This document shows, piece by piece, positions 11,635 to 14,105 of a stretch of 40,778 bases of DNA. Within the stretch, counting starts at the first letter, position 1; each line of letters opens with the position of its first letter. The stretch comes from Candidatus Brevefilum sp. (GTDB taxonomy: Bacteria > Chloroflexota > Anaerolineae > Anaerolineales > Anaerolineaceae). The notes under the pieces are model-generated. The model made no database searches and was not told the DNA's origin. It saw only the letters and a program-made list of their open reading frames with translations. The translations under genes were made by a program, and so were the position numbers. The stretch lies in contig JARGGB010000025.1 of the NCBI GenBank assembly GCA_029210815.1, positions 1 to 40,778 on the forward strand, in the 5' to 3' direction.

Positions 11635-12669
11635 TTAATCAACTGAAAAGAAAATCATTCGGAAAGTGATGTAAATAAAATAGAGGGCGATCAGGTAGTA
11701 AGCACCCCATTTTCCTAATTTTCCTTTGCTAAACCAGAGGATCATCCACAAAATCGCACCTGTTACAGTCTCCCAGGGAAGGTCCCAGAAAACCAGGGGG
11801 CCAGGCACCCAATAACGGCTGATGATGGCACCGCCGCCAATAGCAACCAGGGGATTGGTAATGTTGCTGCCAACGAGTGTTCCTAAAGAAATGCCGCTGT
11901 CACCGTGGCGCACACCTGAAATTGCAGTGATCAGTTCTGGCAGTGCAGAAGCAACACCAAGGGTCATCACACCGATGAGAGATCCACCGATACCCGTGCG
12001 AGCCACGACCACTTCCGTTGCCTGTAAGGCAATCATTGCGCTGCCTACGGTTAATAATAATGCAAAAAGGGCAATAAATGCGTCTCGCCAGGCTTCTTTG
12101 CTGTTTTGTGGTACACCTTCGGGAGTCTCTCCTTCTTCACTAAATCCATGGTCTTCTTCTTTGTAATGCTTCCGTTCATCAGCATAAAGGTAGTACATGT
12201 AAGCTATAAATGTACCAAACAAGATCAATCCATCAACGCGAGAATAAATGCCATCCACACCCAACACTATACACATGATGGTGGTGACAATCATCGGGAT
12301 CATGCTTTTCCATAAGAAATACCTTTTAAAGTGCAAACCGCCAGCCATTAAAACTACAATTGCCATAATTAATGTTTGCTGTACAACATCTGAGCCAATA
12401 TTTGCACCTAACACGACAGCTGAACTGACTTCGAAATCCAGAGCACCACTTAGGATTCCAAAAGATGCTGTGTAATGCGCGGCAATTTCTGGAATGCTGG
12501 TTGCTAAAGAGACAACAGTCACGCCCATAAATGTTGTTGAAAGCCGAAAATAACCAGCTAAACCAGTTAGTTTCTTGACCGCAACATTTGAGCTCAAAAC
12601 TAATGCAGCAATTGAAATGGTGCCAAATAAAATCAACAGCCCTAAACTATCAGCTAAAAAATCAAACAT
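11635..12669 (-). CDS. Calcium/sodium antiporter family (CaCA, CaxA/YrbG-like) membrane protein
   Basis: The protein is a polytopic inner-membrane cation/cation exchanger with two alpha-repeats facing opposite ways. Repeat 1 has SLATSIPEIAAH (54-65) and VVLGANIGSD (85-94). Repeat 2 has GVASALPELITAISG (238-252) and LVGSNITNP (265-273). The paired acidic residues of the 'S-x-P-E' motifs bind cations. A hydrophilic acidic loop (about 164-192) separates the halves. The length of 344 is typical. The exported ion could be Ca2+ or another divalent cation; sequence alone does not decide. The ribosome-binding site GAGAGG is eight bases before the ATG. The gene has a leader of about 218 nt with a consensus promoter and an internal terminator, so it is likely controlled by attenuation. 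Confidence 0.9.
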   Translation of the reverse strand: MFDFLADSLGLLILFGTISIAALVLSSNVAVKKLTGLAGYFRLSTTFMGVTVVSLATSIPEIAAHYTASFGILSGALDFEVSSAVVLGANIGSDVVQQTLIMAIVVLMAGGLHFKRYFLWKSMIPMIVTTIMCIVLGVDGIYSRVDGLILFGTFIAYMYYLYADERKHYKEEDHGFSEEGETPEGVPQNSKEAWRDAFIALFALLLTVGSAMIALQATEVVVARTGIGGSLIGVMTLGVASALPELITAISGVRHGDSGISLGTLVGSNITNPLVAIGGGAIISRYWVPGPLVFWDLPWETVTGAILWMILWFSKGKLGKWGAYYLIALYFIYITFRMIFFSVD

Positions 12670-12710
12670 TTTTTATGCCTCTCACGCTCTTTATAATAAA
12701 TTTTTCCAAA

Positions 12711-12743
12711 CAAAAATCAGGGTCACAGAACCGTGACCCTGAT
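12711..12743 (-). terminator. Intrinsic terminator inside the antiporter 5' leader
   Basis: The minus strand forms a perfect 11-bp stem (ATCAGGGTCAC / GTGACCCTGAT) with a 6-base loop, followed by a run of T residues broken by one G and then three more T. It lies about 45 bases before the antiporter ATG and downstream of its promoter. It can therefore cut the transcript short before the gene. It is not placed to end any known upstream gene. Confidence 0.8.
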
Positions 12744-12887
12744 CATTTTTGATAAACCCAATTTCAAGGATTGTTCTGTGTGCGATTTTAGCCCTGAAGT
12801 TTCCCTTCAGGGTCATCTTGCACAGGCGCCTGGTACTCTTGAAATTTATCTAATAACATAATTTTTTATAATATATTTAGTTAATGC
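12711..12887 (-). ncRNA. Candidate riboswitch or attenuator leader of the antiporter gene
   Basis: On the minus strand the leader can fold as follows. A closing stem pairs 12850-12838 with 12768-12751 (9 bp, then 4 bp across a 5-base bulge). An inner 5-bp stem pairs 12824-12820 with 12783-12779. Inside it is an 8-bp hairpin (12812-12805 with 12799-12792, CCCTGAAG / CTTCAGGG, loop of 5). Then comes the terminator at 12743-12716. Segment 12815-12807 (TGACCCTGA) can instead pair perfectly with the terminator's upstream arm at 12742-12734, which would prevent termination. This is the form of a ligand-sensing switch that acts on transcription. I compared it from memory with the yybP-ykoY, M-box, fluoride, c-di-AMP and NiCo classes and saw no match. 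The ligand is unknown; a divalent cation would suit the gene. Confidence 0.6.
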
Positions 12888-12893
12888 GAAATG

Positions 12894-12922
12894 ATTATAA
12901 TCCGCATAATACATCGTGTCAA
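12894..12922 (-). promoter_or_regulatory. Consensus sigma-70 promoter of the antiporter gene
   Basis: The minus strand has TTGACA at 12922-12917, a 17-base spacer and TATAAT at 12899-12894. Both hexamers are perfect and the spacing is ideal. The predicted start point is near 12887, which gives an untranslated leader of about 218 nt. Confidence 0.85.
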
Positions 12923-13124
12923 TGAAAAATTGAATAACAAAAGATTAACGTTATTGAACTTTACACTTTTTCGTTGAAAAAAAATTACAATCCAAGGCTG
13001 AAAATATCAACAAGAAATTGACTATTCTACCTTTAACATCTGGTGTAATATTCACTGTAGGTCTAAGATTTTTTGCCGGTAGAATGAATTAGTGAATCAA
13101 AGAAGATATAAAAGGAAATAATTG

Positions 13125-14105
13125 ATGGCACTAAAAGTTCATTTTTATCGATTTGGCTTTCTGGACTATTCAAAGGAATTCAATTCATTGATAGATGCGG
13201 ATATCATATTCTCGCAAGGAAGTGACATCCCGCCTGGCGCTGATTATGAAGTGCTAGTTCACCCACGCCCTTCAAAAGATTGGTTGGATGCAAGTCCCAA
13301 TCTGAAAGCTGTTGTTGTACCCTGGGCAGGCATTCCAGAAGAGACCCGTGAAATTCTCTCTGGTTACCCAGATATCAGCCTACACAACCTGCATCATAAC
13401 AATTTTAACACTGCCGAGCTGGGTTTTGCCCTTCTGTTGGCAGCAGCAAAATATCTTGTTCCCCTTGATCAGAAATTGCGTGCAAACGATTGGCGACCAA
13501 GGTACGAGGCACAAAAAGCCATCATGCTCCGAGGTCGAACAGCCCTGATTTTGGGTTTTGGCGAAATCGGTCAAGCCCTGGCAGCCTACTGCACAGGTTT
13601 GGGTATGAAAGTAATTGCAACTAAAAAACACCCGGAATCCTATTCTGGCGAATTAAACGTTGATATTTACAGTAATGACAAACTTGCCGAATTGCTACCC
13701 AAAGCCGATGTCTTGTTGATTGCCTTGCCATTAACGGAAGAAACCGAAGATTTGATTGGTGAAGAAGAAATTACGCTTATGCCAGAAGGAAGTATCCTGA
13801 TCAACATTGGACGGGGACCAATTGTCAATCAACACGCCCTGTATAATGCTCTCAAATCCGGGCACTTACACAGTGCGGGGAGCGATGTTTGGTATAACTA
13901 CCCAAAATCAAAGGAGGAGCGAGAAAACACACCGCCAGCCGACCTACCGTTCGGTGAACTTGAAAATTTCGTCCTCAGTCCGCATCGCGGCGGAATGGTA
14001 AAAGAAGTTGAAATTCAACGGGCAAAAGCATTGGCAAACCTTCTCAATTCTGCAAGCCGAGGTGAACCCATTCCAAATAAAGTAGACATTGAGGCTGGCT
14101 ACTAG
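13125..14105 (+). CDS. D-2-hydroxyacid dehydrogenase family protein
   Basis: The enzyme belongs to the NAD(P)-dependent D-isomer-specific 2-hydroxyacid dehydrogenases, which interconvert 2-oxoacids and D-2-hydroxyacids. The Rossmann motif is GFGEIG (144-149). The catalytic Arg230 in NIGRGP and His287 in SPHRGG are present. The catalytic Glu, expected 29 residues after the Arg in DVYEGE-type motifs, is replaced by Tyr259 within SDVWYNYP. The substrate is therefore hard to predict. The ATG at 13125 has AAAAGGA about nine bases upstream, better than the TTG just before it. The alpha/beta hydrolase gene follows after 42 bases with a near-identical ribosome-binding region, so the two are probably one operon. 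Confidence 0.88.
   Translation: MALKVHFYRFGFLDYSKEFNSLIDADIIFSQGSDIPPGADYEVLVHPRPSKDWLDASPNLKAVVVPWAGIPEETREILSGYPDISLHNLHHNNFNTAELGFALLLAAAKYLVPLDQKLRANDWRPRYEAQKAIMLRGRTALILGFGEIGQALAAYCTGLGMKVIATKKHPESYSGELNVDIYSNDKLAELLPKADVLLIALPLTEETEDLIGEEEITLMPEGSILINIGRGPIVNQHALYNALKSGHLHSAGSDVWYNYPKSKEERENTPPADLPFGELENFVLSPHRGGMVKEVEIQRAKALANLLNSASRGEPIPNKVDIEAGY

Follow-up and report, generated by a model that had tools for sequence, protein, structure and literature searches.

A conserved upstream open reading frame ahead of a CaCA-family cation antiporter of Anaerolineae, most likely a transcription attenuator rather than a riboswitch

The window (the whole stretch of 40,778 nucleotides from Candidatus Brevefilum sp. 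that was analysed) encodes on its minus strand a cation antiporter preceded by a leader with a promoter, an upstream open reading frame (uORF) and a terminator (Table 1). The gene codes for a YrbG/TIGR00367-type CaCA antiporter: the product matches the Pfam Na_Ca_ex domain (PF01699) at 2.3e-30, above the gathering score, in agreement with the first-pass annotation of this DNA; it matches TIGR00367 at 2.5e-41, yet under the cut-off of that model; and the closest solved sequence is NCX_Mj, a distant likeness at 2.3e-11. The promoter (TTGACA at 12922-12917, a 17-nt spacer and TATAAT at 12899-12894) is the perfect one that had been described, and transcription would be expected to start at about 12887, which places approximately 218 nt of leader before the ATG at 12669, as also described. 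The promoter is notable for its strength and not for the number of such sites, because it is the only site with at least 9 of 12 matches in 12000-13600 and shuffled sequences average 3.9. The terminator and its T-rich tail were likewise borne out, with 12-13 pairs instead of the 11 first counted. The leader DNA is single-copy in its own genome. The uORF (12859-12788) is absent from the first-pass annotation, in which the leader was put forward as a candidate riboswitch and possibly a new cation-sensing RNA.

Table 1. Features of the antiporter gene and its leader, in order of transcription (positions in the window)
Feature	Position	Strand	Remarks
Sigma-70-type promoter TTGACA-17-TATAAT	12894-12922	minus	12 of 12 consensus matches
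uORF, 23 aa, MLLDKFQEYQAPVQDDPEGKLQG and stop	12788-12859	minus	shared by all 7 antiporter-bearing genus genomes; 19 leaders in all; translation predicted
Closing stem, 5' strand, within uORF	12838-12846	minus	pairing in 93.2% of cells (7 genus leaders)
Core codons P-V-Q-D-D-P-E-G	12803-12826	minus	core of 18 leaders; slowing or loss of the ribosome proposed at DDPE
Segment 1, CTGTG in uORF	12821-12825	minus	potential pairing with CACAG in segment 2, as a possible anti-antiterminator
Hairpin over DDPEG codons	12792-12812	minus	pairing in 82.1% of cells (7 genus leaders); both-sided change at 1 pair
Segment 2, CACAGAAC-aat-CCTTGA, directly past uORF stop	12764-12780	minus	complementary to terminator; proposed 5' strand of antiterminator
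Segment 3, TCAGGG-tcacg-GTTCTGTG, within terminator	12724-12742	minus	proposed 3' strand of antiterminator; GTTCTGTG unchanged throughout the 7 genus leaders
Intrinsic terminator hairpin and T-rich tail	12715-12744	minus	13 pairs; -19.0 kcal/mol for 12743-12716
CaCA-family cation antiporter, 344 aa	11635-12669	minus	PF01699; TIGR00367 below cut-off; NCX_Mj

Homologous leaders were gathered from 147 genomes of the family, 88 of them with an antiporter match at E 0.001 (mostly weak), of which the best 30 were made into loci; from genome contigs (32 loci); from 396 genomes of the class Anaerolineae (30 matched at E 1e-60); from one further family (10 of 24 genomes matched); and from a sample of 400 genomes of the phylum, in which the 7 matches at E 1e-50 were all within Anaerolineae. 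Matches beginning past residue 35 or 40 of the antiporter, those with less than 60 nt upstream and duplicates were left out, giving a deduplicated set of 58 upstream regions, a few shortened by contig ends. A short ORF containing D-D-P-[ED] is present in 18 of the 58 and was not found in the other 40, in a few merely because the contig ends. The 500 nt before the Pelolinea submarina homologue (L017/L047) likewise gave no DDPE uORF. A nineteenth leader (L108, genome G019) completes an antiporter locus cut by a contig end (L032), so that uORFs with variants of P-[VI]-[QEK]-D-D-P-E-G are known from 19 leaders in ten groups of Anaerolineae. Within the genus the antiporter was found in 7 of 16 genomes, some of the others being incomplete. 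When the uORF is read from the farthest 5' ATG within 40 codons (one leader has GTG instead), DDP begins at residue 13-22. The core is held in most of 18 leaders (P 15, V/I 15, E/Q/K 16, D, D, P, E 17, G 14), the exceptions including S or A for the first P (L040, L060, L085) and R, H or S for G (L035, L010, L085, L025). No clear Shine-Dalgarno sequence was seen by eye before the uORF of the window; AGGA-like stretches, which the leader of the window lacks, were noted, also by eye, 5' of the start in L036, L010, L040, L042, L025 and L069. A best-match search run without a control placed promoter matches of 9-12 of 12 positions 8-57 nt upstream of the chosen start in all 18 leaders; matches of 10-12 positions (16 of the 18) lie 10-57 nt 5' of it, and both L043 leaders reach just 9. 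The two L043 loci (526 and 2001) are tandem antiporter copies, both preceded by a DDPEG leader and terminator of their own, and L054 has two tandem copies that lack a DDPEG leader.

Across the 396 Anaerolineae genomes the pattern CCNNNNVARGAYGAYCCNGARGG has 16 sites in 16 genomes, of which 6 are antiporter leaders and the other 10 were judged unrelated by reading frame alone, with 4 sites for the same pattern written backward; of the 16 genus genomes, 7 contain GAYGAYCCTGARGG, at 10 sites in total, 6 of which are leaders and the other 4 apparently unrelated, and its control has none. These pattern searches within Anaerolineae turned up no recognisable DDPEG leader before a different gene.

Comparison of 15 codons shared by six uORFs of the genus demonstrates, at the level of the aligned sequences, that a short ORF between promoter and terminator is under coding constraint: the variable columns at codon positions 1, 2 and 3 number 2, 2 and 9, and pairwise codon differences comprise 58 synonymous and 26 nonsynonymous changes. 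Since the motif served to collect the leaders, some of the constancy of the first two bases in the DDPE codons follows from the selection itself.

The same comparison bears on the proposed riboswitch, in which the closing stem, inner stem and hairpin would form an ion-binding aptamer controlling the terminator. Consistent with a structured RNA, the folding energy of the leader (12890-12700) is -53.7 kcal/mol, compared with -35.4 (sd 3.9) in shuffled sequences (z -4.7; 0 of 200 equally good); the leader lies before an ion-transport gene, and the core (12856-12745) alone has z -3.2 (1 of 200). All three predicted elements form in the fold of the core, namely the closing stem (AATTTCAAG at 12846-12838 with CTTGAAATT at 12768-12760), the inner stem (CTGTG at 12825-12821 with CACAG at 12780-12776) and the 8-bp hairpin (12812-12805 with 12799-12792); the closing stem is missing from the fold of the whole leader. 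As the first-pass annotation had suspected, the leader resembles no known RNA class: a covariance-model search of the whole window against Rfam gave no match at the gathering score, and a relaxed search of 12600-13000 gave 9, all far under their gathering scores and at E 0.89 or worse. Scored over the 7 genus leaders, the proposed structure with the terminator pairs in 86.3% of cells, shows both-sided changes at 3 pairs and has a covariation score of 0.132, values that 17, 19 and 12 of 500 shuffles, respectively, also reach. This covariation is modest, and 2 of the 3 both-sided changes are in the terminator, leaving a single aptamer-side pair, in the hairpin. The inner stem has its full five pairs in only 3 of the 7 leaders (62.9% paired across them; an alternative register, GCGCC/GGCGC, was noted by eye in L034 and L035). 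An unsystematic look by eye outside the genus found no counterparts of the closing and inner stems, though the DDPE peptide persists there. The loops that had seemed to belong to an unrecognised aptamer are mainly codons, as the amino-acid conservation and codon-position bias of the uORF indicate: AGTACCAGGCGCC encodes mainly E-Y-Q-A-P and AAGATGA mainly Q-D-D, and CTAAAATC holds the uORF stop codon. Conserved non-coding loops together with covarying aptamer stems were not found among the 7 leaders of the genus. Since conservation follows codons, with bases drifting mainly at third positions, the ion-binding aptamer was rejected, and a cation-sensing riboswitch appears very improbable. What endures of the original proposal is a conserved leader with a terminator, outside the Rfam classes, before a cation transporter; this real, conserved leader is most likely an attenuator operated through the uORF rather than a riboswitch.

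How the uORF might control the terminator is suggested by complementarity between them. Segment 2, which also supplies the inner and closing stems with their 3' strands, contains CACAGAAC, complementary in the genus to GTTCTGTG of the terminator loop and 3' arm, and CCTTGA, which could pair with TCAGGG of the terminator 5' arm. Like GTTCTGTG, CAGAAC is unchanged in all 7 genus leaders, and the opposite arm of the terminator varies, mostly keeping a G-U pair; CACAGAAC reads CGCAGAAC in three leaders, and two leaders differ by one base. Non-standard pairs occur in two leaders: L108 has two in the terminator and one in the antiterminator, and L006 has one in the terminator and one in the main helix of the antiterminator, the second helix being partly affected as well. 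Covariation of the antiterminator within the genus does not exceed that of shuffles (96.8% paired, 1 both-sided change, 131 of 500 as high); the genus leaders alone cannot prove it, and the case for it therefore depends on comparison between groups.

For that comparison, ten groups were formed by leader similarity, each contributing one median p with failures included, and contiguous helices were obliged to cover the terminator loop, with non-cognate segments and terminators as controls. The letters differ between groups and complementarity is retained in six of the ten (CACAGAAC/GTTCTGTG, GCGAACTTT/AAAGTTCGC, GCTACAGAATGA/TCATTCTGTGGC, TGCAATAAG/CTTATTGCG, CGCAATAAG/TTTATTGCG and TCACGCTGCAC/GTGCAGCGTGA), four being individually below 0.05: the genus at 0.08 (the window itself at 0.036), L040/L060 at 0.038, L042 at 0.004, L011 at 0.094, L025 at 0.012 and L085 at 0.002. 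In these six, non-cognate terminators were equally good in 0-2 of 12-17 cases and non-cognate segments in 0-3 of 12-17. The helix was no better than shuffles in the remaining four groups, L036 (1.0), L010 (0.82), L043 (0.66) and L069/L070 (0.48); an interrupted match, CACAG and GCAC, was seen by eye in L069/L070. Fisher's combined p over the ten groups, against mononucleotide shuffles, is 1.4e-4, a guide only, because the test was designed after the pairs had been noticed in the same sequences. It replaced a first duplex test that was too permissive, joining many small helices; that test gave p 0.003-0.013 in 5 of 6 genus leaders (0.35 in L006), one value of 0.043, one of 0.050 and others above 0.1 in 12 leaders from outside the genus, and combined p of 2.3e-6 (18 rows) and 0.005 (the 11 less related rows). 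L108 stands outside both tests, and the terminator of the second L043 leader, too wide in the first, was bounded by hand. In the window the DDPE codons TGACCCTGA (12815-12807) are also fully complementary to TCAGGGTCA of the terminator 5' arm (12742-12734), a further possible alternative pairing seen by eye in some other genus members.

Sequence comparison across the leaders establishes a uORF under constraint, its DDPEG motif, a predicted terminator and, in the genus and five further groups, a complementary segment near the uORF end. In the six supporting groups segment 2 overlaps the uORF stop or sits at most 17 nt from it, so that a ribosome at the stop codon would cover it wholly or partly. 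The arrangement also bears on whether the peptide might instead act in trans as a small protein, the terminator being an ordinary one. The peptide core is indeed kept at the amino-acid level, but uORF length and both ends differ widely between groups, and the uORF lies just 5' of a terminator-like hairpin in 18 of 18 leaders, its end region matching that hairpin in six groups; a function in trans is accordingly about as improbable as the riboswitch, if not slightly more so. The leader is probably, and with good confidence, a transcription attenuator controlled by translation of the uORF, whatever the signal.

An attenuator of this kind would operate as follows: RNA polymerase would start near 12887 and a ribosome would translate the 23-codon uORF; if translation were smooth, the ribosome at the stop would cover segment 2, the terminator would form and the antiporter would be off; if the ribosome were slowed or lost at DDPEG, segment 2 would be free to pair with the terminator and the antiporter would be on. 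Folding calculations, with assumed ribosome footprint sizes, give the helix of segments 2 and 3, for a transcript ending at 12724, a probability of 0.98 when no ribosome is present, 0.99 when one stands at Asp16/Pro17 and 0.00 when one is at the stop, and for a transcript ending at 12721 the values are 0.23, 0.89 and 0.00 (0.96 with the ribosome at Asp16/Pro17 when just the RNA 3' of it is folded). From 12719 onward the terminator reaches at least 0.90 at equilibrium in every ribosome state. Since the terminator wins at equilibrium, and the antiterminator stands at 0.98 at 12724 even without a ribosome, the switch would need to be kinetic. The calculated order of events fits an attenuator acting during the passage of RNA polymerase, but does not show the antiterminator to persist.

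The proline codon of DDPE (12811-12809 in the window) is CCT in 18 of 18 leaders, although the collection allowed CCN; L108 is excluded from this count because its search pattern fixed CCT. CCT makes up 6-36% (smoothed) of the proline codons in the same antiporter genes, and the other core proline codon is CCG in 6 leaders, CCT in 4, CCA in 4 and CCC in 1. CCT-GA always yields TGA in the minus-one frame, which, besides tRNA effects, was considered as a possible reason for CCT. The codons of E. coli mgtL read GAA CCT GAT CCC, with CCT and CCC for proline. As excerpts of the respective papers describe it, the EPDP sequence of MgtL destabilizes ribosomes at low Mg2+, through early acidic residues and proline (PMC11282234); a second proposal invokes slow decoding of CCC/CCU when the Mg2+-dependent TrmD is short of Mg2+ (PMC6335274); and Asp/Glu codons of the mgtQ uORF of Salmonella cause ribosome loss followed by a switch from a 1:2 to a 2:3 stem (PMC8092293). 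Decoding specific to CCU is weakened as an explanation because ribosome profiling of m1G37-deficient E. coli, according to the excerpted report, shows pauses at all four CCN codons (PMC8384417).

Like MgtL, which precedes mgtA in E. coli and Salmonella, the leader described here has a short acidic and proline-containing peptide, CCU/CCC codons (here CCU) and a divalent-cation transporter downstream, and in both, as far as the excerpted sources go, leader translation decides or is proposed to decide transcriptional read-through. The two differ in that MgtL controls Rho-dependent termination of a Mg2+ importer, whereas here an intrinsic-terminator-like hairpin precedes a CaCA antiporter, and in that the MgtL motif is at residues 2-5, here at 13-22. 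Comparison by eye with E. coli MgtL found acidic-proline character alone in common and gave no indication of homology; the leader may work like MgtL, yet it falls outside the MgtL family. The proposed ribosome loss on acidic codons and stem switch would be shared with the mgtQ uORF before mgtB of Salmonella, which, in the excerpted account, differs in being 8 aa long and intergenic and in controlling translation rather than termination. TnaC and the trp/leu attenuators, to judge from excerpted descriptions, let ribosome behaviour on a leader ORF decide termination, as is proposed here; in contrast to them, the leader here has no run of codons for a single amino acid and no known small-molecule ligand.

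By analogy with EPDP in MgtL, which does so for Mg2+, slowing at the acidic-proline motif might report disturbed divalent-cation balance, either low Mg2+ or an excess of Ca2+ opposing Mg2+, a step proposed with less confidence than the switch itself. A divalent cation is the best single, though tentative, guess at the signal, and other translation stresses are an equal rival: the same attenuator, differing in signal alone and already counted within the confidence placed in the attenuator, might respond with comparable plausibility to ribosome-targeting drugs, to a shortage of EF-P or ABC-F factors, or to a shortage of charged Pro, Asp or Glu tRNA. The anatomy is the same as that of drug- and amino-acid-responsive leaders, and translation comes to require the ABC-F factor EttA when acidic residues stand early in the chain (PMC11282234, in excerpt), but a single-codon run like that of amino-acid attenuators is absent and the target is an ion transporter. 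That the nascent DDPEG peptide itself senses divalent-cation balance in Anaerolineae, low Mg2+ or excess Ca2+ slowing or dislodging the ribosomes that make it and so switching on the CaCA exporter, is a narrower proposal that we consider less likely than not.

Other leader peptides precede the antiporter elsewhere in Anaerolineae. In four antiporter leaders (L057, L059, L097 and L101) we observed by eye unrelated peptides that end, immediately before the stop, in GFGEQGPP, GFGEQGPP, GFGHQSPP and GYGDQSPPS, respectively, each followed by a hairpin with a T-run. Ribosomes are known to stall where two prolines precede a stop codon. The pattern G[FY]GxQ[GS]PP(S) before a stop (related loci L119-L123) has 6 sites in 5 of 396 genomes, against 4 for the backward control; the six are the four leaders, a duplicate of the L057 leader that lies where a contig of the same genome ends (L123) and a site apparently inside a different gene (L118). 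With this second, unrelated peptide, the antiporter seems to have come under the control of leader peptides on more than one occasion. L009 has yet another candidate, the third, which reads MFEKMHEFQHPGCDIAAVAACAVLLP and a stop; it lacks DDPE and has a similar N-terminus (HEFQHP, compared with QEFQAP), and by eye AACTGCGG of the terminator region matches CCGCAGTT within the uORF. Among open-licence papers, as far as their titles and the beginnings of their abstracts go, we recognised none that deals with leader peptides in Anaerolineae or ahead of CaCA antiporters.

The claim of a riboswitch thereby gives way to a testable ribosome-based switch, and the leader gives a first handle on the possible regulation of this antiporter family. 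The short, defined motif and the CCU codon kept throughout make the leader amenable to toeprinting. If the nascent DDPEG peptide is itself the sensor, a principle like that of MgtL would have come about independently in a second phylum, in which further lineages place an unrelated peptide ending in GxQ[GS]PP before the same gene; and if the cation part of the attenuator reading is right, divalent-cation sensing by acidic-proline leader peptides would extend beyond enterobacteria to Chloroflexota, and to an antiporter.
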